Shown here: one piece after another, positions 13,651 to 42,655 of the stretch
How the letters are laid out: every line of letters starts with the position of its first letter
Numbering within the stretch: the first letter of the stretch is position 1
NCBI GenBank assembly: GCA_017462645.1
Contig: JAFTQR010000019.1
Coordinates: 1-49,169, forward strand
Length of the DNA stretch: 49,169 bases
From: Acholeplasmatales bacterium
GTDB lineage: Bacteria; Bacillota_I; Bacilli_A; Acholeplasmatales; Anaeroplasmataceae
Direction: 5' to 3'
Translations under genes and position numbers: made by a program
Notes under the pieces: model-generated
Database searches by the model: none
What the model saw: the letters and a program-made list of their open reading frames with translations, nothing else
Told to the model about the DNA's origin: nothing

Positions 13651-14652
13651 TTATATTTTTTTAGTAGAATTCCTTATAATTACCTTTCCTGGAATTGATA
13701 TTGATTCCGGTTTAGCATTTTTTTCAATCGCATTAAGTAAAAGCTTTGCGAGTGTTTGTCCAATTTTTTTAGTGTTTTGTTTAGCGGTTGTAAGTGGTGG
13801 GTTAACTATTTCACCAAATTCAATTCCATCAAAACCAACAACTGAGATATCATTTGGACATTTTAGCTTATATTTTTGAAGTAATGATATACCTCTAATA
13901 GCCGAAATATCATCAGAAAAAATAATTGCGGTTGGACGTTTTTTTCTATTTACAATACTATCAATGATTAATTCAAGGCTAGCTAAATCAACATATTTTG
14001 ATTTAATTAGCATATCATCATGAAATTCTATTCCATGATTAATTAAGCAATCCTTAAATGCTTCAATTCTTAAATCTGTAATTTTATTATCATCACCAGC
14101 AATATATACAATATTCTTGTGATTATAATCAATTAAATGCTTTGTTAGCTCATATGCTAAATTATAGTTATTAGATACTACTGAGCTCATTAGTTCACCA
14201 ACATAGTCAAAGCCTACACTAGGAATATCACTTTTTATAACCTCAAGCATTTCCTTATCATTCATTTCACCTAATAGTAAAACACCATCTACATTTCTTG
14301 AAATACAATTTTGGTAAAATGTACCAGTGTTTTCACCTACAGTTCTTGAAATAAACAATAAATCATATCTCTTTTTATTAATAACACTCTGAAATGAATC
14401 TAATATATCCATAAATAGTGAATGCTTAAATGGTGTTATTTGTGTACCAAAGTATGATAACACACCAACATTAAAGGATTTACCCTTTGATAACTGCTTA
14501 GCACTACTATTTGGAATATATCCCATTTCCTTCATTACGGCTAATACCTTTTCCTTGGTAGCCTCAGGTATTGAAGAATAGTTATTAACAACCTTTGATA
14601 CGGTAGATGGGGAAACTCCACATTTTTTTGCAATATCATATATCGTAACCAT
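13651..14652 (-). CDS. LacI-family transcriptional regulator of the beta-glucan locus
   Basis: 333 residues. A LacI helix-turn-helix at the N-terminus (TIYDIAKKCGVSPSTVSKVV) includes the hinge region (MGYIPNSSAKQLSKGKSFNVGV). A periplasmic-binding-protein-like effector domain follows, with GVLLLGEMNDKEM, the DGVLLLG segment, VSVVGFDGIEFGEIVNPPLTTAKQ and an IRNST-like end. ATG follows GAGGTGATAGA. The gene sits near the end of the long operon. The 12-bp palindrome GAAACCGATTTC at both divergent promoters near 29400-29530 is the expected type of operator, so autoregulated repression of the whole operon is likely. The inducer, perhaps a beta-gluco-oligosaccharide, is unknown. Confidence 0.9.
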   Translation of the reverse strand: MVTIYDIAKKCGVSPSTVSKVVNNYSSIPEATKEKVLAVMKEMGYIPNSSAKQLSKGKSFNVGVLSYFGTQITPFKHSLFMDILDSFQSVINKKRYDLLFISRTVGENTGTFYQNCISRNVDGVLLLGEMNDKEMLEVIKSDIPSVGFDYVGELMSSVVSNNYNLAYELTKHLIDYNHKNIVYIAGDDNKITDLRIEAFKDCLINHGIEFHDDMLIKSKYVDLASLELIIDSIVNRKKRPTAIIFSDDISAIRGISLLQKYKLKCPNDISVVGFDGIEFGEIVNPPLTTAKQNTKKIGQTLAKLLLNAIEKNAKPESISIPGKVIIRNSTKKI

Positions 14653-14661
14653 TCTATCACC

Positions 14662-15975
14662 TCACCTTACTGTTAAAGTTACTACTGATTTTTTAGGAAT
14701 ATCTAATATATATCCCTTTTTATCTATTGATATTTTTACGTTAATATCATAATCATTATCATTTAAAATAACTGAAATAATACTATTATTTTGTTTTTTA
14801 TAGCTTGTCGCAATTACATTTTCTTTATATATTTTTGTATCTATTCTTATATCATTATTTTCTATAAATCTCGAAAAATGAGAGATTATGTAAAATGATG
14901 GATTAAAGATTAATTTATCATTATTTTCATCATACATTATTGGTGATTCACAATAATTACCTACATAATTAGGACCACCATTTATATCCAAAATTAAATT
15001 CCAATCAATAAAGGCATTTGAATAATTTTCTGAATCTGATATGTAGTTTCTACAATATCTTAGTCCATTTTCAAAATTACCAATATTTGAGCTTGGATTA
15101 TTCTTATCAAGATTAAGAAGTTCAATGCAGCCTTCTGTAAAAAACATCACCTTATCATTATATTCTTTATGTATCTTAGATAATTCTGCTGAGCATCCAT
15201 TATCATACCAATGGTATGCAATACCATAGGCTTGATTATAATTATTATCATTTAAGGTTTCATTAACTCTATCAAAGATAATATCTCTATTATGATCCCA
15301 TATAAATATTTTAGTATCTATATTAGAGTTTTTTATTTCATTATATACTAAGCTTAAAAGTCTAGCCTCTTCACTTGATTCATATATACAGGAATCCCAT
15401 ATTTGAGTAGCCTGTGGCTCATTTTGAAGTGACATATAAGAAATAGCTAAATCATTATTCTTCATTTCATTTAAATATGTAGATAAATATTTAGCATAAT
15501 CATTATATGATTCTTCCTTTAATTTTCCTCCATTCTGTCTTATACCATTTGTTTTATAAATTGCTGGAGGGCTCCATGGCGAAGCAAATAGTTTTATTTG
15601 CTTCATTTTTTTAATTTTTTTTAGAAATGGGATAATTACCTCTTTATCATGTGATAAGTTGAAATAGCCATCTTCTAAATAGTCATATGTTTTAGTTGAA
15701 AAATCACATGAGCCTATCGTTAGTCTGATTAAAGAATAATTTAAATAATTAGAACTAAAAACCTTATTTATAAATTCCTTTTTAACATTATCACTCATTT
15801 TAGCTATTAATGATGCCGAAGCATCAGTTAATGCTCCACCAAATCCCATATTCAGTTGATAATTGATTTTACTTTCTATTATTATATCATATTTTAAAGA
15901 TTCTTGCATTAGTATATCTGCTTCTTCAAAATATTTATTACAATTTGATATATAAACCTTATTCAATATCCTCAA
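14662..15975 (-). CDS. GH30-family glycoside hydrolase, cytoplasmic
   Basis: 437 residues, a normal GH30 length. Family landmarks are GFGGALTDASA near the N-terminus, ASPWSPPAIYKTNG, the acid/base region SLQNEPQA, and the nucleophile region MFFTEGCIE. A C-terminal beta-sandwich closes the protein (SVILNDNDYDINVKISI). GH30 members act on beta-1,6- or beta-1,3-linked glucans or glucosides. No signal peptide is present, so it should act inside the cell on imported oligosaccharides. No ATG is available: TTG at 15975 or, with better spacing from GGGGG/GAGG, TTG at 15966. It overlaps the upstream membrane gene and stops with TGA. Confidence 0.85.
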   Translation of the reverse strand: MRILNKVYISNCNKYFEEADILMQESLKYDIIIESKINYQLNMGFGGALTDASASLIAKMSDNVKKEFINKVFSSNYLNYSLIRLTIGSCDFSTKTYDYLEDGYFNLSHDKEVIIPFLKKIKKMKQIKLFASPWSPPAIYKTNGIRQNGGKLKEESYNDYAKYLSTYLNEMKNNDLAISYMSLQNEPQATQIWDSCIYESSEEARLLSLVYNEIKNSNIDTKIFIWDHNRDIIFDRVNETLNDNNYNQAYGIAYHWYDNGCSAELSKIHKEYNDKVMFFTEGCIELLNLDKNNPSSNIGNFENGLRYCRNYISDSENYSNAFIDWNLILDINGGPNYVGNYCESPIMYDENNDKLIFNPSFYIISHFSRFIENNDIRIDTKIYKENVIATSYKKQNNSIISVILNDNDYDINVKISIDKKGYILDIPKKSVVTLTVR

Positions 15976-17824: not shown

Positions 17825-19324
17825 TTATTGATATACACGAATATAATCTACTGACATTGCTTGAGGGAAACTATCACCAATATTAAATCCTGGCCAATTT
17901 CCACCTACAGCAACATTAAATAGAATATAAAATTCATTATTAAAGCATGACATTGATGAATTTGTAGAGATATCAACTGAATATATTTCAGTACCATCTA
18001 CATAGAATGTCAATTTAGTGCTAGTCCAATCAAGAGCGTATGTATGATATTCACATCTATTTCCTACATTAATAGCACTTGTTCCAGTATAAGCATGAGA
18101 ATATGATGAGCCCTGATTCCAGTGGATTGTAGAATATATTTCATTATTATAATTAATAGCCTCCATAATGTCTATTTCACCACTAAATGGCCATGGATTT
18201 TCATCTATATCTGCTCCTAGCATCCAAAATGCTGGCCATATTCCATTCATTGAAGGTAAAGCCATTCTAGCTTCAATATAGCCATATTTAAATTCATATT
18301 TATCCTTTGTAATAATTCTCGCAGAGGTATAATTATAGCTATTCATGCTTTCTTTTCTTGCAACAATTTTTAATGAGCCGTTGCTTACATATGAATTACT
18401 AGTAGATGATGTGTAATATTGAAGCTCATTATTACCCCATCCACCACTACCATTACCAATTTGATGAGTCCACTTAGTTTCATCTAATGTAGTAGAATTA
18501 AATTCATCATTCCATACTAATGTTTTTCCATTTTTACTTGTTGTTGCGGCATCATATGTACCATCTAGGCCCTCTTGGCTTTCTATTTCTAATTTATCAC
18601 CTAAAAGTGATGGGTTTTTAATAGTAATTATATGATTGTCATTTAATGTACCATTAACATTACCAAGCATAAAGCCATATAGGTATGTTGATGTTTGATC
18701 AACAATAAATTTTTCCTTAACAATTAATGGCTCATTAGCATTTAAGCTATATGTTTTATTAAATGGAATTGGTGAATAAGATGTATCCTGTTGAATTAAA
18801 AACTGAATACTTCTTGTATATGAGCTTGTAATTTCAAAGCTTAATTCATATTCCTTACCATTTTCTAAAATAATACCATTTTGTAAACATTGTACTGACC
18901 AATTTTGAGCGCTATTTTTATTATTTATCTCTAGCTTTAAAACACCATTACCATTTGAAACAACCTTTTGAGATACATTTCCATCATTATAAATAGTCCA
19001 GCTATTTAATGAATCAAAGCTATTATTTTTTAATAGTTCTTCTCCATCCTCTTCAATATAAGGTGTTGGAGTTGGGGTTGGAGTAACCTCAATTGTAGGT
19101 GTTGGAGTTGGGGTTGGTGTTTCAGCTATTGATGGAGTAGTGCTACTTGGTTCTATAGTAGGCTCAACATCTTGTGAATTGGTAGGTTCTTCTGTTGAAT
19201 CAATAGATGGTGTTAATTCATCAGATGAATTACTACCAAATATATCTCCTATTTGTATATCACAGGATGTTAAGCTAATTAAAAATATAAATAATGTTAG
19301 TAAATATAAAACTTTTCTTCTCAT
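17825..19324 (-). CDS. GH16 endo-beta-glucanase lipoprotein with N-terminal CBM4/9-like domain
   Basis: 499 residues. The lipoprotein signal ends at Cys21 (LTSC). A Ser/Thr-rich region and Thr-Pro linker (about 69-88) precede a CBM4/9-like domain (about 97-250; ELLKNNSFDSLNSWTIYND and NGKEYELSFEITSS). The GH16 laminarinase-type domain (about 260-499) has LVWNDEFNS, WTHQIGNGSGGWGNNELQYY, the catalytic [11 protein letters not shown] (two Glu and the Asp) and WPAFWMLG. It would cut beta-1,3 or mixed-linkage glucan at the cell surface. The gene starts nine bases after the MsmK-type ATPase gene with only a weak ribosome-binding site, implying coupling. Confidence 0.93.
   Translation of the reverse strand: MRRKVLYLLTLFIFLISLTSCDIQIGDIFGSNSSDELTPSIDSTEEPTNSQDVEPTIEPSSTTPSIAETPTPTPTPTIEVTPTPTPTPYIEEDGEELLKNNSFDSLNSWTIYNDGNVSQKVVSNGNGVLKLEINNKNSAQNWSVQCLQNGIILENGKEYELSFEITSSYTRSIQFLIQQDTSYSPIPFNKTYSLNANEPLIVKEKFIVDQTSTYLYGFMLGNVNGTLNDNHIITIKNPSLLGDKLEIESQEGLDGTYDAATTSKNGKTLVWNDEFNSTTLDETKWTHQIGNGSGGWGNNELQYYTSSTSNSYVSNGSLKIVARKESMNSYNYTSARIITKDKYEFKYGYIEARMALPSMNGIWPAFWMLGADIDENPWPFSGEIDIMEAINYNNEIYSTIHWNQGSSYSHAYTGTSAINVGNRCEYHTYALDWTSTKLTFYVDGTEIYSVDISTNSSMSCFNNEFYILFNVAVGGNWPGFNIGDSFPQAMSVDYIRVYQ
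19061..19120 (-). repeat. Thr-Pro linker-coding repeat in the GH16-CBM gene
   Basis: Two GGTGTTGGAGTTGGGGTTGG-like blocks encode TPTPTPTPT and TPTPTPTP. The linker joins the lipid anchor to the CBM and is similar in DNA and protein to those in two other lipoproteins here. Confidence 0.75.
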
Positions 19325-19330
19325 AATCTT

Positions 19331-20554
19331 TTAAAATATAAATTTTGTAGTTTCAGTATCAAATAAATGAATAGCATCTCTATCTAAAATAATAGATACC
19401 TTTTCCTTAGAATAAATAGGTCTATCAAAATATACCTTACTAATCACTTCAGCTTCGTTTAGCTTGAAATGTAAATGATATTCATTACCTAAAAGCTCTG
19501 CGTTTTTAATTTCTAATTCTGTTGAATTAGTTTTATTTTTAGCAGTTGTGAAGCTATCAGCTAAGGCAATATTTTCAGGTCTTATTCCAAGTAAAATATC
19601 CTTTTCTGCTATACCATCATTATTATAAAATTCATTATATTTATTCATTTCATTCTCTGTTAAATTAATTATAATATCTTCATTAACAATGATATTACCA
19701 TTATTAAATTTAGCAGGAATTATATTCATTGCAGGAGAACCAATAAATGTCGCAACAAAGGTATTATTTGGTCTATCATATACCTCCTTTGGACTACCAA
19801 TTTGTTGGATATATCCATCCTTCATTACAACAATTCTAGTCGCCATTGTCATAGCCTCTGTTTGATCATGAGTAACGTAAATTGTTGTTGCCCCAAGCTC
19901 TTGATGAAGGTTAACAATTTCGCTTCTCATTTGAACTCTAAGCTTTGCGTCTAAGTTAGATAGAGGCTCATCCATTAGGAATACCTTAGCATTTCTAACG
20001 ATTGCACGACCTAATGCTACTCTTTGACATTGTCCACCAGATAATGCCTTTGGCTTACGGTCAAGATATTGACTAATCTGTAAAATTTCAGCAGCCTTTT
20101 TAATTCTTTGTTCAATTTCTGCCTTTGGAATTTTTCTAACCTCTAAACCAAATGCTAAATTATCATATACACTCATATGAGGATATAATGCATAGCTTTG
20201 GAATACCATTGCTACATCTCTATCCTTAGGCTCTAAATCATTAGCGTATTCTCCATTTATATATAAATCACCACTTGTAATATCCTCAAGACCAGCAATC
20301 ATACGTAATGTTGTAGATTTACCACAGCCAGATGGACCTACAAATACTATAAATTCCTTTTCATTTATTTCTAAATTAAAGTCATAAACAGCTTGTACAT
20401 GATTTGAATAAATTTTATTTATATGCTGTAAGGAAATAAAGCTATCCTTAGGAGCTATTTTTTCTTTTAGCTTATCTATTTTAGCTTGTTCTACCATTTC
20501 CTTATGCTTTTGTTCAAGAAGCTTTAATTCTTCATTACTTTGTTTTTTCTTCAT
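19331..20554 (-). CDS. MsmK/UgpC-type sugar ABC transporter ATP-binding protein
   Basis: 407 residues. An unusual charged, coiled-coil-like extension (about 1-38) precedes a complete CUT1 ATPase: Walker [11 protein letters not shown]-loop [14 protein letters not shown], signature LSGGQCQR, Walker [13 protein letters not shown] and H-loop [12 protein letters not shown]-terminal OB-like regulatory domain follows ([15 protein letters not shown]). This subunit would power the two permeases of the same operon; such ATPases often serve several sugar transporters. AAGGAGATATAAGCATT precedes ATG. The ATPase lies six genes downstream of the second permease gene, between two GH16 genes. Confidence 0.93.
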
Positions 20555-20559
20555 AATGC

Positions 20560-21450
20560 TTATATCTCCTTAAATATACGAACATAATCTACCTTCATTT
20601 GTGCTTCAGCAAAATCATTTGGAGGTAATGTAAAATCATCAAAATGACCTCCAACAGCCATATTTAATAATATATGGAATTCATGATCAAATGGTGCAGT
20701 ATATGATGTTGGGTCAGCTGCCGAATACCATTTTTGGCCTGGCTTAGATGGGTCATTATCAATAGAAAAAAATTCCTCATCATCAACGTACCAAGTCATT
20801 TTATATTCAGTCCATTCTAACGCATATACATGATAGCTAGAGATTGTATCATCTCTAAAAATTTTTGTTTTTGTTTGATATGTGTGACCACCAGATGAAG
20901 AATTATAGTGTAATGCTGCGCTAGTCATATCATTAACTCTTCCTCTTGCCTCCATGATATCAATTTCACCAGATGTTGGCCATTCACCATATGGTGTATC
21001 AGATTCTGGCAGCATCCAAAATGCTGGCCACATTCCTTCAACCTCTGGCAATGAAATTGAGGCTTCAATTCTACCATATTTAATTGCTACCTTATCTTTA
21101 GTAGATAATCTAGCTGATGTATATTCATAATTACCAACAGATTCCTTTCTTGCAGTAATTACTAGCTTACCATCCTCTACACTAACATTTTCCTCTTGGT
21201 AATATTGTGCCTCTTGGTTACCCCATCCAGGGTTTCCATACATAGAGCCATCACCATACATATAATTCCAATATTCTAGGTTTAATTCATCACCATCAAA
21301 TTCATCATTCCAATATAATTCATACCCCTCAGGGATTATCATTTCATCATTATTCTCATTATTATCTTTACCATTACAACCAACTAAAAGTGCTGTAATG
21401 GTAAATGATAAAATTAAAAGCTTTTTTAAGCTAGCCTTCGATAAAGACAT
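20560..21450 (-). CDS. GH16 endo-beta-glucanase lipoprotein
   Basis: About 296 residues, a lone GH16 laminarinase-type domain behind a lipoprotein signal ([15 protein letters not shown]). Core motifs: [37 protein letters not shown] and the catalytic [12 protein letters not shown]-terminal [10 protein letters not shown] ends the fold. It lacks the linker and CBM of the other GH16. Start choice: the longest frame begins at 21471 within the phosphorylase gene; ATG at 21448-21450 gives a normal signal peptide and is preferred, although its ribosome-binding site (AAAGG) is distant. Confidence 0.9.
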
Positions 21451-22642
21451 CAATATTGCTAACCTTTCCATTTCTAATATCTTGTGCTAATTGACCACAA
21501 ATAGAATCATATTTAATGTTATTTATAACATAATAAATATTTTTAGCATCATATGTATTGATTCTATTTTCATTATGATAAGTTATTAACACATTAGAGA
21601 ATAATGTGAATTTAGCTTCATTATTTTCATCAAATAATTTGCTTGATAATTTTGGTGACAGACAGAATATTAATTCATTATTTTCGTTAACATCAAATAC
21701 CTTATCTCCTAAGAACATAATAGTAATTATGTTTAAAACCTCTGAATTAGCTCCTGTTAATCTTGCAAAAAAGCCTTGTCCATGTAATTCATCATCAGGA
21801 TTACATGTAGGTACGATAAATGAGCTATTCTCTATTATACTTCTACCATATACATATGGATCCATATAGATAGGGAAATTATTCTTTATTTCATAGTAGA
21901 ATTCCTCGTAATAGCCTGCCTTTAGTAATCCTAAAAGATATTTATAAGTCATATGTAGGAAATTACATTCTCTTTCAAGCCAGCCCTTAGTAAAGGCATG
22001 AACTCTACCAATTTCAAATGGTGCATTATCAATATCTGCACATGTTTTATAGAATTTTAGCTTCTTATCATATATTTCAGTAGATTGAATTTTTAAATAG
22101 TCTTCTTTTTTATAGAATTCCTTACCTAGCTTTAATACTCTTGCTGTTGCTTCTAGGAATGGTGGAATTGTTTCTACCTCAAAGCTTAAAGGTAGAACTG
22201 TTTCATAGCCTAAATGATTGATTAGACCTGTTTTTTTATAATCCTTTACATGATGAATTAAATAGCTTGGAATTATTCCATCAGCTAGCTCCTTAGAGCG
22301 CTTAATACCATCAGTAAGAATCTCTTCCATTTGATTTAATAATTCATCGGCATCATTAACATTAATATAAGCCATTTCACCAGAGACATTATTTTCAATT
22401 TTTTCTCTAAATAATTCTCTTGATGTTGTAGCCTTATCCCAATAATCAAATTGTGATAATTGATTATTTAATCTTAATGGTACTATTTCCTTAATTGAAT
22501 TAAATAAATCATATTGCTCCTTATATACCTTAAACTCATTAATATTAAGCATGTTGATATATTTTTTAAGGAATCTTAATAATCTTAAAAGCTCTATTGT
22601 TTCACTTAAGGCTGATCCTGAAATACCAGGTAATCCATTCAT
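21431..22642 (-). pseudogene. Beta-glucan phosphorylase (GH94/149/161-like), C-terminal part after in-frame stop
   Basis: This 403-codon stretch is the same reading frame as the 631-codon gene upstream and is separated from it only by TAA at 22664-22666. The seven codons between the stop and the first ATG read KPGWNDA, and MNGLPG follows directly. That is the catalytic-loop motif of these inverting phosphorylases, with the proposed general-acid Asp. The downstream part includes ETIELLRLLRFLKK, ADELLNQMEEIL and GWLERECNFLHMTYKYL, then the C-terminal region PDDELHGQGFFARLTGANSEVL. Translated alone from 22642 it would lack most of the catalytic barrel. No good ribosome-binding site precedes the ATG. 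Confidence 0.8.
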
Positions 22643-22663
22643 TGCATCATTCCAGCCTGGCTT

Positions 22664-24559
22664 TTAACACTCCATTTCAATACCCATTTGTAGTGAATCT
22701 AATGTAGAGAATTTTACAACTATTAAAGAGAATATTTTATTTAATAATGATGTCTTAACAATATTTCCATTAGTATCATGCAACCAATTTGTTTTGTTAA
22801 TATCAATATTATATTTTTCCTTCTTTTCCTTTGCCTTTTGTAGGTTTATTGCACCATATTGGCGAACCTTTGTTGGATTAATAAGACAATATTTTTCTTT
22901 TCTTGGTTCAACATACACTGGTGAATAAAAATATTTGTATTCCTTGTTTAATAATAAATCCTTAATTAAATCTGGATATACTGCTGCATAATTCTCTAAT
23001 AAATCAACATTATATGTCCAGTGATCAACCCAGTAGCCTTCTGCGAATGTTGCTTGAATTTGTTGGCTACATTCATTGATAATAGCTGAGAAAATATTAT
23101 CCTCATTATCAGATAATAAACTATTATTATCCTTTAATAATGTATAAAGCTGACTTGGCTCAAAGCCCTTAACTAAATCTATTACTTGTTCTTTAATAGG
23201 TGATGATATTTTAGCCAATATTGCGTCTATATTACCATCCAGCTTAAAGATAAGTGGTTTAACATTTAATGGATTTTGTCCATCCATTTGAATAAGCTCA
23301 AAGAATATTTTAATATTATAATCCTTAACAAATGGATAATAATATAAATCACTTCTTCTATTTTGATTTACATCTCTAAAATTACCTTGTCCTGATGAAT
23401 AATATCTTGAAGGAATTTGGAATGAGTTATAATCTCTTTCCATATCACCATGCTTACGGCTATATAAATAATATACCTCATCAGTTCCCTTAATTTTATG
23501 TGGGAATCCACCACGTAGGTTATTATCAAGGAATGATTGTTTAATATATTCATCTAATAAATTATCACCTGTTTTTACATAGCTTGGAGCTAGTAGCTCT
23601 TCTATTAGTTTTTCATTTTCTTCTGATACATTTGATAATCTTTCAAATGATTCATTTTCATATGCTAGCTTAAACATATCCTTATTATCAAACATTCCAT
23701 ATAATGAAATAAATGAATATGATTCATTTGGATTCAATGTTACCTCAAAAGCTGTAAAGGCACATGGTAATTTATTTTCTGTTTGTTGCTTAGAATTAAT
23801 TAATTCATGATAAGGTTTATTTATAAAGCCAAGAGGATTAATTAATGACTTATCCTTACCAAATATTAATCTTAAATCTACAATTGAATTTAATAGATTA
23901 TTATTTTGATCAACTGTAAAGAAACCATTACCTGAATTACTTTCCTCCACTATAGAATTATCTGCAGTTGATGTTTTAAATTTAATAAATGGATGATTTG
24001 AATCTAATTGTTCTACCTCACAATAGGCAGCCATAAGAGATACTAGCTCCTTATAGCAATAATTAGATAATCCATTAGGGAAAATTATTGGTAGACCATC
24101 TAACACCTCAAAGCTTCTTTTTTTATTTGAAGTATTAGTCATTGTTACCTTTCTAACTAAACCAGCATATTTTCTATGTGGTAATGTAGAATAATTAACC
24201 TCATATTTTATATCATTATCTACTTCAATGATAGAAACGTCTGATTTGCCAATAATTAATGTATCTGTTTCTATCATTGAAGAGAATGGAGAAAATACTT
24301 TATTATCTTCTTTAATAAATGTTCTAAAAGAACGAGTTGATAAGTTTTGATATGCTAAATTAGCACTATCAAATGGTGTAATAGGAGTGTCCTTATTATT
24401 CACACCAAAGCCTGCCATTGCTTGTCCTACATTAGCATAAAATGCCCATAGTGGTTTACCATCGATACCGGAAATAGCTGGCAAAAAATTTGCAAAAGTT
24501 TTTGCATTTTGGTAATCTTTAATAACAAATTTACCATTTTCAAATTTGTAATTTACCAT
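22664..24559 (-). pseudogene. Beta-glucan phosphorylase (GH94/149/161-like), N-terminal part ending at premature TAA
   Basis: 631 codons. The sequence follows large cellobiose-phosphorylase-like enzymes: an N-terminal beta-sandwich (FLPAISGIDGKPLWAFYANV, GQAMAGFGVNNKDTP), a linker, and an alpha/alpha-barrel with KHGDMERDYNSFQIPSRYY, GNFRDVNQNRRSDLYYYP and YWVDHWTYNVDLLENY. It stops at MGIEMEC followed by TAA, exactly where family members continue into KPGWNDA. With the downstream part the protein would be about 1,042 residues, the size range of beta-1,3-glucan phosphorylases. Such enzymes release glucose-1-phosphate from imported oligosaccharides with inorganic phosphate. AAAGGGATTTTTAAA precedes ATG. 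Family number within GH94/149/161 is not certain. Confidence 0.8.
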
Positions 24560-24578: not shown

Positions 24579-26000
24579 TTATGCTATATAAGTCTTAATA
24601 ACAGGATAACTTAATGTTGGATAATTACCATTAGTAATATTCCAAACATTTGTATCATATGCTGCATATAAAGTAGAATCCTTTAATTCAGCAGCTGTTT
24701 TAACGTATGAGTCAATAACTGTACCTAAATCAGTGTCACCACTACCTGGCTTATTTGCTGCTAAATGTGTTTGAGTGAAGCAAATATCTCTTGATTGACC
24801 CTCGTATACAGTGTTTGTATATGAAATTGCATAACAATTTTCAATTACGCCCCATGTCTTACCAGCAAATGCATATTTACCATTTGTTTGAACACCATTA
24901 CTATCAATTTCTTTAGAACCAGAATCAACTGGGCTACCACTTGAATAGTTCATTAATGGTCTATCTACATTTGCAAATTGCCATGATGGATCTGTGTTGT
25001 TTGGTTGAGAAGTATGGTCCCAACCATTACCTATTTTACCAATATAATCAGATGAATAATCCTTAAATGTATTAGGTAATGTTAAATTGCTTGTTAAGCA
25101 AATTGTATTTCTAATAATACCAGAGCCTGCAACAATACCTGCTACACCACCCATATTACAGTCATTATCATAGAAATGTGTACCCATTTGAGCAGAACAT
25201 GTTTCAGTAATAACACAGTTTTCAACTAGTCCTGATACATTACCTGCAACAACACCAACGATTGTTTTACCGCGAACCTTAATATTATCGAAAACAACAT
25301 TTCTAACTACACCAGATGAACCAATAATTTGGAATAAACCAATATTGTTTCCTGATTGATGACATTCCTCTTTAAATAATGAATTATTATTGTAAACCTC
25401 TTCTGCACTTGTTGTTGAGCTACAATAATAAACACTCGCATTTTTAACTGTATAACCATTTCCTTCTAAAATACCATGGAAATAATCATTCTTTGTACTT
25501 GTTTCATCATAATAATAGCCTAATGGCTCAAAATTAGGAATTGATGATAAATCTATATCATTTCCTAATACATATACGCCTTTAAGATTTTCATTGATAT
25601 CTTGAAATTCTTGAGCTGTAGTAATAACCTTAGTTGCGATTAGCGCATCTATTTTTTCCTTAGAATCATCTGAATATGTTACAGTGATTTGCTTTTCACC
25701 AGAACCAATTTGCTCCATGAAAGATCCTTGTAATGTTAAAACCTGGTTCTTAACACCAAATTCTAGCTTATCACCCTTAGCTCTACCGCATGAAACTGCT
25801 GTAACAGATTTATCCTTATCAAGCTTTACAGAAACTGCATAAGCCTCTTTTGATGAATCATAAATAATTTTATCCTCATAAACAGTATCACCTGTACCAT
25901 ATGTTGGACCTTGCTTTGGTTCATCAGAGCCACATGCACTTAAAGCAACAGTACCAAATAATAATGCTGCACAGTTGAAAAATCTAAATATTTTCTTCAT
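24579..26000 (-). CDS. Lipoprotein with beta-helix/GLUG-like repeats in sugar transport operon
   Basis: 473 residues. Lipoprotein signal with lipobox LSAC (Cys23). A beta-sandwich (about 40-130, EAYAVSVKLDKDKSVTAV) resembles a small Ig-like domain. After it a parallel beta-helix-like region begins TTAQEFQDINENLKGVYVLG, DIDLSSIPNFEPLG, GILEGNGYTVKNAS and repeats G-V-V-x-N-V-V-F and G-x-x-A-G-x-V-x-G turns (GIVRNV-like), as in GLUG-repeat proteins. It lies between the permease and phosphorylase genes. It has no recognised catalytic residues and probably binds glycan at the surface. Confidence 0.65.
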   Translation of the reverse strand: MKKIFRFFNCAALLFGTVALSACGSDEPKQGPTYGTGDTVYEDKIIYDSSKEAYAVSVKLDKDKSVTAVSCGRAKGDKLEFGVKNQVLTLQGSFMEQIGSGEKQITVTYSDDSKEKIDALIATKVITTAQEFQDINENLKGVYVLGNDIDLSSIPNFEPLGYYYDETSTKNDYFHGILEGNGYTVKNASVYYCSSTTSAEEVYNNNSLFKEECHQSGNNIGLFQIIGSSGVVRNVVFDNIKVRGKTIVGVVAGNVSGLVENCVITETCSAQMGTHFYDNDCNMGGVAGIVAGSGIIRNTICLTSNLTLPNTFKDYSSDYIGKIGNGWDHTSQPNNTDPSWQFANVDRPLMNYSSGSPVDSGSKEIDSNGVQTNGKYAFAGKTWGVIENCYAISYTNTVYEGQSRDICFTQTHLAANKPGSGDTDLGTVIDSYVKTAAELKDSTLYAAYDTNVWNITNGNYPTLSYPVIKTYIA

Positions 26001-26012
26001 ATTTCCTCCTTT

Positions 26013-26957
26013 TTATCCCTTTAATCCACCAACTGATGTATTTTCCATAATTGTTTTAGAAAATGCTACAAACACAGATATGATAGGGATTATTGCGATT
26101 ATAATTGTTGCGAATAATAGTGTATAATTACCACCATTACCAATTAATGTTTCTGTTAAATAGTCTAGACCTACTGCGATTGTAGGTTTTTCAGGTAAAT
26201 AAATTGATGGCGTTAAATAATCATTCCATAAGCCGATTAATTGAATAATTGAAATAGCAACAATTGGACCCTTTGCCATAGGAATAATTATTCTAAAGAA
26301 TATTGTAAAGTCATTAGCTCCGTCAATTCTTGCTGCTTCTACATAAGTCCATGAAAGATTCTTAAAGAAGCTATATAATAGTAAGAAATTCATTCCAAAT
26401 CCACCGGAATATAAGAATATACATCCTATTACAGTATTAGATAAATGTAGATTATCCATTAATTGAATTTGGCTTGGTAATGAACCTACTATTGGGACAA
26501 TTAATGAGAAAATTACTACACTAAATAATAAATTTCTACCTGGGAATTTATATTTTGCAACAACATATGCTGCTGCAGATGATGTAAATACTGTAACAAT
26601 TGTACCTACACCTGCAATTAAAACACTCATACCCATCATTTCTAAAACTGTAAAATTTTTAGTTGCTCTATCTTTAAAAGTGAAAGCTTCTATAAAATTT
26701 TCTGCAGTCCAATTAGATGGAAATGACATAAAATCACTTGCAAATTCCTTTTGCTCCTTAAATGCATTCATTACAACCCATAAGAATGGGAATATAAATG
26801 ATACAGCAAATAATACAAATATAACAAACATAATTATAAATAATACTTTTTCGCCCTTATGTCTTTTATATAAGATATCATGCTTTTTTTCGTATTTTTC
26901 TTTAAGACGTTCTGCTTTTCTTTGTGATAATTTTTCACTTATAAATTCTTTTACCAT
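26013..26957 (-). CDS. CUT1 carbohydrate ABC transporter permease (MalG-type)
   Basis: 314 residues. A charged N-terminus (about 1-35) precedes six TM helices. The EAA loop for ATPase contact is EAARIDGANDFTIFFRIIIP near residue 210, followed by GLWNDYLTPSIYL. The end (IIAIIPIISVFVAFSKTIMENTSVGGLKG) is typical of MalG-type subunits. It starts at the stop of the other permease gene (TAATG overlap), indicating coupled translation and a heterodimeric channel. Confidence 0.93.
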   Translation of the reverse strand: MVKEFISEKLSQRKAERLKEKYEKKHDILYKRHKGEKVLFIIMFVIFVLFAVSFIFPFLWVVMNAFKEQKEFASDFMSFPSNWTAENFIEAFTFKDRATKNFTVLEMMGMSVLIAGVGTIVTVFTSSAAAYVVAKYKFPGRNLLFSVVIFSLIVPIVGSLPSQIQLMDNLHLSNTVIGCIFLYSGGFGMNFLLLYSFFKNLSWTYVEAARIDGANDFTIFFRIIIPMAKGPIVAISIIQLIGLWNDYLTPSIYLPEKPTIAVGLDYLTETLIGNGGNYTLLFATIIIAIIPIISVFVAFSKTIMENTSVGGLKG

Positions 26958-27874
26958 TAGAAGCTCACATCCTCATACTTTTTATTTAATAAACCTCTAA
27001 CTGTTAATATAATTGGAGCACCAATTAAAGAACAGAATAAACCTAATGTTGCAGGTGTATGTAAGGCACTACCACCACTTTGTTGGTATATTTGTAATCC
27101 AATTGTCATTGTGTCATAATTACCCGATGTTAAGAAGAATGGCTGTAAATATACATTAAATACAGACATCATACCTAAGACAAATAAAGTAGTTATTGTA
27201 GGCCATGTTAAAGGTATTATTATTTTGAAAAATTCTCGCATTGGAGAAACTCCATCCATTTTACATGATTCTAATATATCTCTTGGTATTCTACTCATAC
27301 CTGATGTTAATAGAATAACATCGTAGCCAATACCAGCCCAAATACAGAATATCCATACCATCCATTTAGCATTATCTCCTATAAATAAATCACTAGTATC
27401 TCCACCAAAGAATTCTAATAAAGGATCCATTAAGCCTTGGTTAGAAAAGCTTAAAGAAAAGACTAGGGTTAATATTACTAAAGGCAATATGCTTGGAATA
27501 TAAAATATAATTTTAAAAAATTTATTACCAGCTATTTTCTTAAATATAAAATATGAGAAAAATAAAGCTACTGGTAAAGTCACTAAGCATGAGACTATAA
27601 AGTATGCTCCCGATGCCATAAATAATTTCTGTGTTGAATCTTGCTTGAATGAATCAAATAAGGTTTCATAATTAAAAAATAATTCATTCCATTCATTCCA
27701 TTGGAGTTTACCTCTTACAGGTGATTGGAAGGTTAATAATATCGAGTTTATATTTACACCAATCCACATTATTAAGAAATGTAGAACTGGATAGATTAGC
27801 ATAAGAAAGACGAAAATATTTTCGCCTTTAATACGCCATTTTTTCCTTCTTTTAGGTTTTACTTCTTCGTTCAT
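26957..27874 (-). CDS. CUT1 carbohydrate ABC transporter permease (MalF-type)
   Basis: 305 residues: basic N-terminus (KPKRRKKWRIKGENIF), six TM helices and the EAA loop ESCKMDGVSPMREFFKIIIP followed by TWPTITTLFVLGMM. Partner of the MalG-type subunit encoded directly downstream. The gene follows the solute-binding protein gene after six bases, the standard order of CUT1 operons. Confidence 0.93.
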   Translation of the reverse strand: MNEEVKPKRRKKWRIKGENIFVFLMLIYPVLHFLIMWIGVNINSILLTFQSPVRGKLQWNEWNELFFNYETLFDSFKQDSTQKLFMASGAYFIVSCLVTLPVALFFSYFIFKKIAGNKFFKIIFYIPSILPLVILTLVFSLSFSNQGLMDPLLEFFGGDTSDLFIGDNAKWMVWIFCIWAGIGYDVILLTSGMSRIPRDILESCKMDGVSPMREFFKIIIPLTWPTITTLFVLGMMSVFNVYLQPFFLTSGNYDTMTIGLQIYQQSGGSALHTPATLGLFCSLIGAPIILTVRGLLNKKYEDVSF

Positions 27875-27880
27875 AATATT

Positions 27881-29335
27881 CTAATCCTTTATACCAGCAT
27901 TTCTCATCCAAACAGACCAACCAGTTTTTGCACGGTTATAAATATCAGAACCTACTATAGCAGGTGTAGCACTTGAAGTATCAGAGCATGCCTTTTGATA
28001 GAAATATTGATTTTCAACCCATGGCATAAAGATATTAGTATTCCATACTGTAATTTCATTCTTACTAGCTAAATGGAAACTCTTAGAGTTAACTAGCTTT
28101 TCATGAACAGATTTAATATATGTATTAGTTGATTCTAATTCAGATAAATCAACATCATCATAATCAAATGCTAAGAAGGCACCCTCTGCCTTTTCAACAA
28201 ATGTCTTACATGCATCATATGTTGCCATATATGCTAAGAAATCCTTTGCTAGCTCTTGATTTGGTGTATTTTCAGGAATAATCATTGAATCACCAAAGCC
28301 TACTAAATAGTTACGAGCCTCTGCACCCTCATATGCTGCAGGCGTAGGCATCATAGCTATATCAAATTCTAATGTACTATCTGTTGATTTTTCAATTTCT
28401 TTCTTTGCCCATTGTGCATAAGGAATCATTGCTGCCTCGCCATTAGCAAATTGAGCTTGAGCTGAAATAAGCTTTTGTGAATATGAATCACTTGTTGAAT
28501 TTGCAGGATTTAAAGCAATTAGGTCATACCACATTTCATATGCTTCAACAAATTCCTTATAATTTCCATTTGGATTATAAACCTCATAGCCAGTTGAATT
28601 CTTATTTGATGTTGGATCAACAAATGCTTTATATGCTTCAATCTTTTCATCACCAGCTAATTGAGCCCACCATTCAAACACTAAATAATCCCAATAATAT
28701 TGTCTATCTGCACCACTCCATGCGAATGGCTTAACTGTTTGTCTTGTACCCTCAACAACTACAGCATCACTATTAATTTCATTACATAACGCAACTAAAT
28801 CATCATAAGTTTCTGGTACTGTCCAACCATTTTCTTCAAACATATCCATGTTATATACGATACCACCAGCACCTTGAGTATAACATACCTTATAGAAATG
28901 CTCTTGTCCATCTTCACCTTTAGTCTTAGAGTATTCTACTGCACTATCAATAACTCTTTGTTCAAATGTTTGACCAGTGCCTTCAACCTCTCTTGTATAT
29001 AAATCATCAAGATTTGCTAATAAGCCTCTTGCTGCAAAATTTTGCCAATTAATATCATGAGACATATAAATATCATAATCACTAACATTTTCTAATTGAT
29101 CTTCCATTCTATCAAGAATTGTAGAATCAACCTCTGGAGTTACAACAATACCAGTCTTCTCTTGATAATCAGCAGCAATAGTTTCAATCCATTCTGTACC
29201 ATATCCACCATCATATACACAGATTCTTAATTCACCTTCTACAATTTTTGAATCATTTCCTCCACCACATGATGCTAATGCTAATAAAGAAACACCTGCC
29301 ATTGCTGACATTCCACATAATTTTTTTAGCTTCAT
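27881..29335 (-). CDS. Carbohydrate ABC transporter solute-binding lipoprotein
   Basis: About 484 residues. The lipoprotein signal ends LALASC. The mature protein is a cluster-1 extracellular solute-binding fold (RICVYDGGYGTEWIETIAAD, DIYMSHDINWQNFAARGLL, YNMDMFEENGWTVPETYDDL). Its C-terminal half contains AAMIPYAQWAKKEIE and MNAGIKD-like ending. Given the operon it probably captures beta-gluco-oligosaccharides. Two ATGs are available; the second (29333-29335) has AGAGG at eight bases and is preferred over 29341. It is the first gene of the operon, behind a perfect TTGACA-17-TATAAT promoter. Confidence 0.92.
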   Translation of the reverse strand: MKLKKLCGMSAMAGVSLLALASCGGGNDSKIVEGELRICVYDGGYGTEWIETIAADYQEKTGIVVTPEVDSTILDRMEDQLENVSDYDIYMSHDINWQNFAARGLLANLDDLYTREVEGTGQTFEQRVIDSAVEYSKTKGEDGQEHFYKVCYTQGAGGIVYNMDMFEENGWTVPETYDDLVALCNEINSDAVVVEGTRQTVKPFAWSGADRQYYWDYLVFEWWAQLAGDEKIEAYKAFVDPTSNKNSTGYEVYNPNGNYKEFVEAYEMWYDLIALNPANSTSDSYSQKLISAQAQFANGEAAMIPYAQWAKKEIEKSTDSTLEFDIAMMPTPAAYEGAEARNYLVGFGDSMIIPENTPNQELAKDFLAYMATYDACKTFVEKAEGAFLAFDYDDVDLSELESTNTYIKSVHEKLVNSKSFHLASKNEITVWNTNIFMPWVENQYFYQKACSDTSSATPAIVGSDIYNRAKTGWSVWMRNAGIKD

Positions 29336-29380
29336 AACCATTACCTCTTTCTTATTTAATTATATAAACTCGCACATTAA

Positions 29381-36759: not shown

Positions 36760-37032
36760 TTAGTAGAATAAAAAGCCAAATACAGTAAATCCATAGAATA
36801 GAGCTAAAATTAAATAGCCTACTATAAAGATTGTTACATTATTAAAGTTTGGATTATCACTAAAATATTGGTTAATTGCATATTGATTTAATAATGGATA
36901 TATTACATCTAATAATGCAAGTAATACAACAAAGCTTATTAAGCCTATTGCATATCCTGGCTTTTTAAATACTGTTTTAATTATTTTTCTCCATGGGTGA
37001 TTATTAGTAATTTTTATTTCATCATTTCTCAT
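36760..37032 (-). pseudogene. ABC exporter N-terminal piece ending in premature TAA
   Basis: 90 codons with the first two TM helices (YAIGLISFVVLLALLDVIYP, IFIVGYLILALFYGFTVFG). It ends FGFLFY and TAA at 36760-36762. Reading through restores a full half-transporter of about 600 residues in the same frame. Start ATG overlaps the stop of the preceding exporter gene (TAATG). Confidence 0.8.
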
Positions 37033-38504: not shown

Positions 38505-38846
38505 CTAAACCTTCACCCTCATATCATATCCAATATATTGTGCAAGTGCTCCTTGATAATAATTACATAAAAATCTCATTATAGATCTTACTGCTTGTAA
38601 TACTATCATTGATACACTTACCATTATAATAATTCTTAATACATCATTTTCACTTTCATACCAGTTAATTAGAAAATTTGGTAATGCAACATCCTTACTA
38701 CCATATCCTAAAGCGCCAAAGGCGTATTGAACAAATAATGGTAAGTAAGAGAAAAACCATTGTAATACTGTATTAAGAAATAAAATAAATAAGAAAACTG
38801 ATAAATACTTAATACTCCAGCCAATTATTTTCTTTATTCCCTTCAT
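38505..38846 (-). pseudogene. ABC exporter N-terminal piece ending in premature TAG
   Basis: 113 codons with the first TM helix (WSIKYLSVFLFILFLNTVLQ) and second one (IIIMVSVSMIVLQAVRSIM), ending YIGYDMRVKV and TAG. Relatives usually have Leu-Tyr here, so TAT or TAC to TAG is the simplest change. AAGGAGTAGATATT precedes ATG, five bases after the TetR gene. Confidence 0.8.
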
Positions 38847-39529: not shown

Positions 39530-42500
39530 TTATTTCTTTAAAAATTCTTCATAAAATTCCTTAGCTGGCTCATAATCATCTTGAACAGCTTGATATATAT
39601 AATCATAAGCCTTTTTCTTATCCTCATTTACACCATGACCAAAGTAATAGCATCTTCCTAATCTATGCTGTACAGCAGCATTATCAGCTATTTCACTAGC
39701 TAGGCTATATTGCTTAAAGGCTTCATTATAATCCTTTGGAACATAATAGCCATTATAAAATAAATCACCATATAATAATGTTGTAATAGTTTTAGTACGA
39801 TTTATTTTACTTAATAGCTCATATGCCTTTTTATAATCCGTCTTATTCCAAATATAAATATCAGCAAGTAATCCAATTCCTTCTTCTGATTTAGGATTTA
39901 TTTTTATAAGATTATTTGCATATTCCAATGCTTTATCTATATTATATACATTACATTTATTATCTTTTAATAAATATATTGCATTTATAAATGATTTTTC
40001 ATAATCCAAATCCATAGCCTTTTTATAATAATCTAAAGCTTTGTTTAAATCCTTATCTACTATTAAGCCTTGTTCATAAAAGTGTCCTAAGTTATTTAAG
40101 GCTATTTCAGATTTTGGATTTAATTTTATGGTTTTTTCATAACATTCAAATGATTGTTCAAAATCTTTATTTTTATAATAAGCAATAGCTAAATCAAGTG
40201 ATATATTATCATCCTTAGGATTTGTTTTATTAGCCTCTAATAAAAGTTTTATAGCTTTTTTATAATCTGGCTCTACTACTCCTTCAACTCCATATAAATA
40301 TCTTCTAGAAAATATATATATTGGATATGCTTCCTTAGTTTTATAGCCTTCCTTAATAAGATTAAATCCTTTTAATTTATCAGATGCTACTCCTTTTCCA
40401 TCCTCATAACATTTACCAAGCATTGTTGAAGCCTTTAAATAGCCATTATCATAGGCTTTTTGATAAAACTTAAAGGCTTTATTATATTCCTTTAAATTAT
40501 CATAGCAATTACCAATCATATAAATTGCATATATGCTTCCCTTTGATTGAGCCTCTTGATATAATTCTAAGGCTTTATTATAATCTATTTTTATTTTAAG
40601 CTTATCATTTCCATTATAATAAAAATCAGCTATCACATTGATGCAATAAGCATCTTCCTTTTCAATTCCCTTTAAGGCATATTCATATGCTTTAGATACA
40701 TTTATAGCTACACCTATACCATTCATATATGCTTCTACAGTATCTGATATTGCATCAGTATGATTATTATTTGCAGCTCTTAATAAATATTTAAAAGCAA
40801 ATTCTTTTTTTGCTTTTTTATAATTAGACTCTTTAATAATGTCATATACCATATAGCAGGCATATGGATAATTTGTTTTATTTGCAGATTCTATGAAATA
40901 GTCATATGCCTTATCTAAATCTTTATCTACTCCAAGACCATTATAATAATGTATACCTAATTGATACAATGAAGTTTTATTTTCTTTTAAATAAGCTAGA
41001 TTTAAGCATTCAAAGGCTTTATCATAATCAGTATCAACAAATTTAGCATTTCTATATAAATATGCTTTATTACATAAGGCTACTGTTGAGCCTAGCTCTA
41101 TAGCTTTATTTAAAGCCTCTAATGCTTTTTCACCATCATCCATCATATTATAATAAATATAATATAAATTATATGAATGATGTCCATTCTTCTCTAAGCC
41201 AATATTTATATATTTAATGAATTTAGATATATCCTTTTCTACTCCATTACCCATTAAATAGCAATTAGCTAATGGAACTGTAGAATCAGGATTATTAGTA
41301 GATTCATATATTATATTAGCTAGCTTAAATTCTAATTCTATATTTTGTTCTAAGATATGATGTGACATTAACATTATATATAATTCATATTGCTTATCAA
41401 AATTATCAGTAGCAATATATGATTTCAAAGCATTTACTTGATCATTAAAAGATTTATCTTTAATTACTAAAGAATCAAATAGCTTTCTTTTCTTTTCTAA
41501 TATAGCTTGATTAGCTATTGTGCTTTTAGATAATGCTGATGCTTTATCTAAATCAGCTTCTACACCTATTCCTTCTGTATAGAAATGAGCTAGCTTTTCT
41601 AATTGTTTATCATTTAATAATTCTTTATTTTCTTCATATAGCTTTATTGCCTTATCAAAGGCTTTTTTATCTGTTATATTATCTAATATTAGGGATTGTT
41701 CAAAATATAAGTCAGCTAATAAAATTTTATATTCATTATCATTTTTATATTTTTTAATATGATTAGATAAAAATTCTATGCATTCCTTTTTAGAATTTTT
41801 ATTAATCTCATAAATATATTTAGCTGCATCCTTATAGCCATTATTATATGCCTCCATTAATAATGACATACCTTTTTCTTTATTAGGCTTAATAAATGAA
41901 TTTGGATTACAATAATATGTAGATGCATATATACATTTACTTTTATCATCCTTCTTTTTATATTTATAATTATTATATGCTTTTAAATATTCATAAATAG
42001 GCTTATAAGAGCTACTATCAATCTTATCTAATAAGGCAAGATATTCATCTACATCCTCTTTTGTAAAATCTTTAACATATTCATTTTTAGGAGTATAAAT
42101 TAAAACAGAAAAATAATGAGCTAAATATAAATGCTTATAACCATATGAATCATTATTAAAAATATCAATAAGCTTTAAGGCTGTTTCTCTTTTAAAGCTT
42201 AAAAATGTATTTTTAGGCATTTCCTTAAAAAGTAATAATAGAGAATCAACCGCATTATTTAAAGCTTTTTTATCCTTTAGCTTATTTTTATCATCAAATG
42301 CCATTATTAATAATATATCAATATAATATATACAATTATGTTTATCAATTTTATTATTGTGGTCATATAGATTATCCTTTAAATATAATAGCCTATAATA
42401 AATATATTCCTTATTTTTTCCTAGCTTTTCGTATATAGTATATAAATAAATATAAATTAGTGTTTTATTTTTATAGATTGGGTCATCTCTTTTTTCCCAA

Positions 42501-42655
42501 TGATGTAATAGCTTTAAGGCTGCCTTATAATCAGGCTTTAAGCCTAGTGCATTATCACCATCCATTAAAACCTTAATAACAGTTGTAAAGCTATAATATT
42601 CCTTTTTAGCTTTATCTTGCATTTGTTTAAAATGCTTAATATCCTTTATTAACAT
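39530..42655 (-). CDS. Giant cytoplasmic Sel1-like/TPR repeat protein
   Basis: 1041 residues, no signal peptide or TM helix. Many degenerate 36-residue Sel1-like units run nearly end to end, for example YQLGIHYYNGLGVDKDLDKA, STMLGKCYEDGKGVASDKLK, LNNLGHFYEQGLIVDKDLNK and QHRLGRCYYFGHGVNEDKKK. TPR-like helices lie between them. Lysine and aspartate rich. Such solenoids are scaffolds for protein complexes; partners are unknown. AGGTGATTTAA precedes ATG. It appears to be a single-gene transcript, with a terminator on each side. Confidence 0.85.
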   Translation of the reverse strand: MLIKDIKHFKQMQDKAKKEYYSFTTVIKVLMDGDNALGLKPDYKAALKLLHHWEKRDDPIYKNKTLIYIYLYTIYEKLGKNKEYIYYRLLYLKDNLYDHNNKIDKHNCIYYIDILLIMAFDDKNKLKDKKALNNAVDSLLLLFKEMPKNTFLSFKRETALKLIDIFNNDSYGYKHLYLAHYFSVLIYTPKNEYVKDFTKEDVDEYLALLDKIDSSSYKPIYEYLKAYNNYKYKKKDDKSKCIYASTYYCNPNSFIKPNKEKGMSLLMEAYNNGYKDAAKYIYEINKNSKKECIEFLSNHIKKYKNDNEYKILLADLYFEQSLILDNITDKKAFDKAIKLYEENKELLNDKQLEKLAHFYTEGIGVEADLDKASALSKSTIANQAILEKKRKLFDSLVIKDKSFNDQVNALKSYIATDNFDKQYELYIMLMSHHILEQNIELEFKLANIIYESTNNPDSTVPLANCYLMGNGVEKDISKFIKYINIGLEKNGHHSYNLYYIYYNMMDDGEKALEALNKAIELGSTVALCNKAYLYRNAKFVDTDYDKAFECLNLAYLKENKTSLYQLGIHYYNGLGVDKDLDKAYDYFIESANKTNYPYACYMVYDIIKESNYKKAKKEFAFKYLLRAANNNHTDAISDTVEAYMNGIGVAINVSKAYEYALKGIEKEDAYCINVIADFYYNGNDKLKIKIDYNKALELYQEAQSKGSIYAIYMIGNCYDNLKEYNKAFKFYQKAYDNGYLKASTMLGKCYEDGKGVASDKLKGFNLIKEGYKTKEAYPIYIFSRRYLYGVEGVVEPDYKKAIKLLLEANKTNPKDDNISLDLAIAYYKNKDFEQSFECYEKTIKLNPKSEIALNNLGHFYEQGLIVDKDLNKALDYYKKAMDLDYEKSFINAIYLLKDNKCNVYNIDKALEYANNLIKINPKSEEGIGLLADIYIWNKTDYKKAYELLSKINRTKTITTLLYGDLFYNGYYVPKDYNEAFKQYSLASEIADNAAVQHRLGRCYYFGHGVNEDKKKAYDYIYQAVQDDYEPAKEFYEEFLKK

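Follow-up and report, generated by a model that had tools for sequence, protein, structure and literature searches.

We found that two adjacent minus-strand open reading frames in the window (the whole 49,169-nucleotide stretch of Acholeplasmatales DNA that was analysed) form one gene for a GH161 beta-1,3-glucan phosphorylase, which is interrupted by a single in-frame TAA codon. On balance we lean towards the view that this TAA results from a wrong consensus base in a metagenome-type draft assembly (65% complete), whether through an error or through the allele of a minority strain.

A single GH161 gene with one altered codon

As the original prediction had stated, the two ORFs (631 and 403 codons) share one frame and are parted by the TAA alone. 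The read-through protein, with the stop counted as X, has 1042 positions, and its residues 8-1040 match the solved GH161 structures 9qqk and 9h8v (E about 1e-203, with 680 bits for 9qqk). Since this match extends from end to end, the two ORFs belong to one gene, which in the present assembly is not an intact single ORF. The alignment loses no length, in agreement with the proposal that one codon was altered without an indel. The PF06165 domain is located at residues 83-288 of the 5' part. The protein shares with the known GH161 enzyme PapP (9qqk, 9h8v) both the match of about 1040 residues and the KPGW(N/Y)D motif, and the assembled gene differs from it by the TAA at codon 632. In contrast, the GH149 beta-1,3-oligosaccharide phosphorylase (6hq6) and the GH94 laminaribiose phosphorylase (6ggy), which belong to the same clan, are distant in sequence and give partial matches only. 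By homology, we assign to the protein a putative role in the phosphorolysis of beta-1,3-gluco-oligosaccharides.

The stop codon directly adjoins the catalytic motif, as had been predicted, with KPGWND starting right after the TAA. The catalytic-type aspartate is indeed encoded downstream of the stop; however, it is residue 638 of KPGWND and thus lies ahead of the MNGLPG segment, in which it had originally been placed. Asp638 is invariant in 86 homologues, and in profile comparisons its motif was aligned with the WND of 6hq6 and 6ggy; it corresponds to the catalytic-type aspartate of the WND motif common to GH94 and GH149. In GH94, the matching aspartate serves as the general acid. Conservation of the catalytic aspartates between the families has been described (PMC6484121). 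The next ATG after the TAA encodes Met640, and the second ORF counted from this codon does not include Asp638. Because Asp638 falls between the TAA and Met640, neither of the two predicted pieces would carry it.

A search of genome contigs for relatives yielded 80 loci, the closest of which are 50-58% identical and come from Bacilli metagenome genomes. The comparison gave a uniform result: the gene is single and full length in all close relatives, and every relative with the motif has a sense codon at the TAA position. The near group invariably has MECE-KPGWND, with the glutamate encoded by GAA or GAG, so that the TAA needs only one G-to-T substitution in the coding strand. Relaxed selection was sought on both sides of the stop among the 100 columns that are invariant in the 86 homologues (63 before and 37 after the stop), and none of the 100 sites was changed. 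The absence of decay on either side implies that the lesion is either very recent or absent from the organism; a very recent pseudogene would look alike. The gene was not found in 26 other genomes of the same genus, representing 26 other species, and is thus accessory in the genus.

Genomic context of the interrupted gene

The gene is part of a glucan-use cluster that spans positions 8637-30994 of the window (Table 1). The neighbours of GH161 include genes for an ABC sugar transporter and for enzymes of GH16 and beta-glucosidase type, and the cluster is of the same type as previously described GH161 loci, in which GH16/GH30 enzymes and an ABC transporter accompany the gene (PMC6484121). Near relatives have the same gene order, namely the binding protein, two permeases, the lipoprotein, an uninterrupted GH161 gene, GH16 enzymes, and the ATPase. 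The conservation of this order in other Bacilli metagenome genomes, together with the absence of GH161 from the genus, suggests either horizontal gain or wide loss. About 40 bases at the 3' end of the GH161 gene are shared with a GH16 ORF, whose translation might likewise be reduced by a premature stop in GH161.

The original prediction had described the enzyme as the sole phosphorylase of the locus, and we extended this claim to the recovered genome (65% complete), where GH161 is the only GH94-type phosphorylase found. Neither a GH3 nor a GH1 beta-glucosidase was found in the same recovered genome. The GH30 enzyme of the cluster could act on glucan oligosaccharides. Given the level of completeness and this GH30 candidate, the suggestion that the stop decides whether the pathway works was too strong.

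Table 1. Location of the cluster genes and of the in-frame stop codons. Plain coordinates are window positions; those with an L prefix lie elsewhere in the draft genome.
Feature	Location	Strand	Remark
In-frame TAA, codon 632 of GH161 gene	22664..22666	-	Glu in all close relatives
GH161 gene, 5' part	22664..24559	-	631 codons; supersandwich domain and first part of barrel
KPGWND codons with catalytic-type Asp638	22646..22663	-	Between TAA and next ATG
GH161 gene, 3' part	21431..22642	-	403-codon ORF from first ATG, not preceded by a convincing ribosome-binding site
ABC sugar transporter substrate-binding protein	27881..29341	-	Same operon
ABC sugar permease 1	26957..27874	-	
ABC sugar permease 2	26013..26957	-	62-81% identity in near relatives sharing the operon
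Lipoprotein adjoining GH161	24579..26000	-	Same place in relatives
GH16 glucanase	20560..21471	-	ORF overlaps GH161 3' end
ABC sugar transporter ATPase (UgpC/MsmK type)	19331..20554	-	
Second GH16 glucanase	17825..19324	-	Carbohydrate-binding domain
GH30 glycosidase	14662..15975	-	
LacI-type regulator	13651..14652	-	
Nonsense TAG, ABC exporter subunit	38505..38507	-	Tyr in same-genus relatives
Nonsense TAA, partner ABC exporter subunit	36760..36762	-	
TGA, pyruvate:ferredoxin oxidoreductase (PFOR)	L179:19112-19114 (contig C38)	-	38 codons before end
TAA, MiaB-like gene	L172:1849-1851	-	Near start
TAA, another ABC exporter	L173:71-73	+	
TAG, pectate-lyase-like protein	L115:15090-15092	+	
TAA, RecX-like gene	L113:9087-9089	-	Weaker alignment

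Internal stop codons across the draft genome

The predicted single-stop lesion is real in the sequence but it is not isolated, since two further in-frame nonsense codons occur in the window. They fall in the adjacent subunit genes of a heterodimeric ABC exporter, one in each, and both genes are uninterrupted in same-genus relatives. Mis-binning of the contig was ruled out, as the best matches of the exporter are in genomes of the same genus (72% identity) and the composition of the contig fits that of the other contigs.

We surveyed internal stops in about 645 kb of the draft genome against stretches of two same-genus genomes, using tblastn with filtered ORFs (antisense ORFs removed) and query genes encoding 200 residues or more. 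Six single-stop interruptions were counted in 284 kb of aligned sequence of the draft and none in 532 kb of the two sister genomes (p=0.0018), where the zero requires setting aside multi-stop matches (antisense frames and 5' extensions) by a filter chosen after those matches had been seen in the sister genomes. Under the same filter, the counts were 4 versus 0 with the window excluded (p=0.014); when the multi-stop matches are retained, the draft and the sister genomes do not differ significantly (p=0.14). Thus, provided that these matches are set aside, the draft shows the excess of internal stops over related assemblies that is characteristic of spurious pseudogenes.

The six interruptions comprise the two exporter genes of the window and the PFOR, MiaB-like, other exporter, and pectate-lyase-like genes. 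Outside this count remain the RecX-like gene and GH161 itself, which has no homologue in the sister genomes. The names of the PFOR, MiaB-like, other exporter, pectate-lyase-like and RecX-like genes were assigned by reading the sequences. Four of the six interruptions affect genes with 75% or more identity to the sister genomes (such genes make up 48% of the aligned bases), including the PFOR gene, which is 94% identical to its counterpart in a same-genus genome; the stops are therefore not limited to fast-evolving genes. TAA, TAG and TGA are all represented among the interrupted genes, and they replace different residues. The stops showed no shared mutation signature of the kind that G-to-T damage would leave: the GH161 stop fits a G-to-T change, whereas the TAT-to-TAG change in the exporter is T-to-G.

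Several other irregularities were observed. Split tblastn matches point to candidate frameshifts at L116:5906-5918, L130:18360 and L170:1813 of the draft genome. The 1957-base contig C7 (L118) seems to be wholly masked, as it contains neither G nor C and yields no tetranucleotide counts. In the window, the minus strand at 39530-42655 encodes a 1041-residue ORF with short repeated segments, Sel1-like in appearance, which has only partial matches in the genus.

Explanations for the stop and their consequences

The occurrence of all three stop codons at varied residues, including those of well-conserved genes, fits random base errors in the draft. Low coverage or poor reads are known to create internal stops and are a source of false pseudogenes, and the number of internal stops tracks assembly correctness (Cooley and Wright 2024, PMC11017572). 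The present draft resembles the spurious pseudogenes of that study (PMC11017572) in having scattered single stops in otherwise intact conserved genes, in excess over related genomes. Under this explanation the T of the TAA would be a base absent from the organism. Several observations weigh against it: few nonsense codons were counted; the errors would amount to about 3e-4 per base, a high figure where an assembly is well covered; and most of the other interrupted genes belong to dispensable types (ABC exporters, pectate-lyase-like, RecX). Moreover, the PFOR stop near the gene end and the MiaB-like stop near the start would suit real mutations too, and the lesions in both exporter subunits would suit a genuine loss of that system.

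A close rival, which we regard as quite possible though not the leading explanation, is that a nonsense mutation arose very recently in this lineage, whether fixed or still polymorphic, and inactivates GH161. The 631-residue product would then be inactive, lacking the catalytic aspartate and half of the barrel, and the downstream ORF would provide no rescue. Such a mutation would be a clean one-base change in an otherwise undamaged gene, it would accompany the nonsense codons of other dispensable genes, including both exporter subunits of the window, and the loss of an accessory gene missing from 26 species of the genus would be tolerated. On the other hand, neither part of the gene shows relaxed selection at the invariant sites, the remaining genes of the operon are open and conserved, and the single-stop excess reaches well-conserved genes.

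The original prediction had also allowed that the organism reads through the stop. We consider it very improbable that read-through or suppression of the TAA yields a full-length enzyme from the present allele, even though the frame after the stop is still open and conserved and a suppressor tRNA could be encoded in the missing part of the incomplete genome. The relatives have a sense codon where the stop occurs here, no RNA structure was detected downstream of the TAA (z=0.03), and the 12 tRNAs recovered from the 65%-complete genome all lack a suppressor anticodon. Normal genes in this genome also end in TAA, TAG and TGA, and the presence of all three stops in place of different residues rules out codon reassignment or any one suppressor. 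Programmed read-through and recoding are thus unlikely. The chance is slimmer still that unusually leaky termination tolerates all three stops, with the interrupted genes, GH161 included, still giving full-length proteins. Equally far-fetched is a split phosphorylase whose two parts come from genuine genes of their own, each translated separately: the two ORFs are long and have an ATG each, but no convincing ribosome-binding site precedes the second ATG (compare AAAGGGA at the GH161 start), KPGWNDA with its invariant Asp638 would be omitted, and all relatives having the operon possess one full-length gene.

The proposed loss of the phosphorolysis step is not established, given the single-stop excess among the conserved genes of this draft. 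If the stop is real, this step would be lost; the fate of the pathway would also depend on the roughly one third of the genome that is absent from the draft. A real mutation would capture a glucan-use operon in the course of shedding its cytoplasmic enzyme, a biologically ordinary event. As a general caution, a lone stop in a draft should be judged against the genome-wide rate of internal stops before a pathway loss is called. According to the explanation by consensus error, this would be an ordinary GH161 gene of a glucan-use operon with one wrong consensus base. In the living population, it would most likely encode the full-length protein, which would act by phosphorolysis on its presumed substrates, beta-1,3-gluco-oligosaccharides, after their import by the adjacent ABC transporter.
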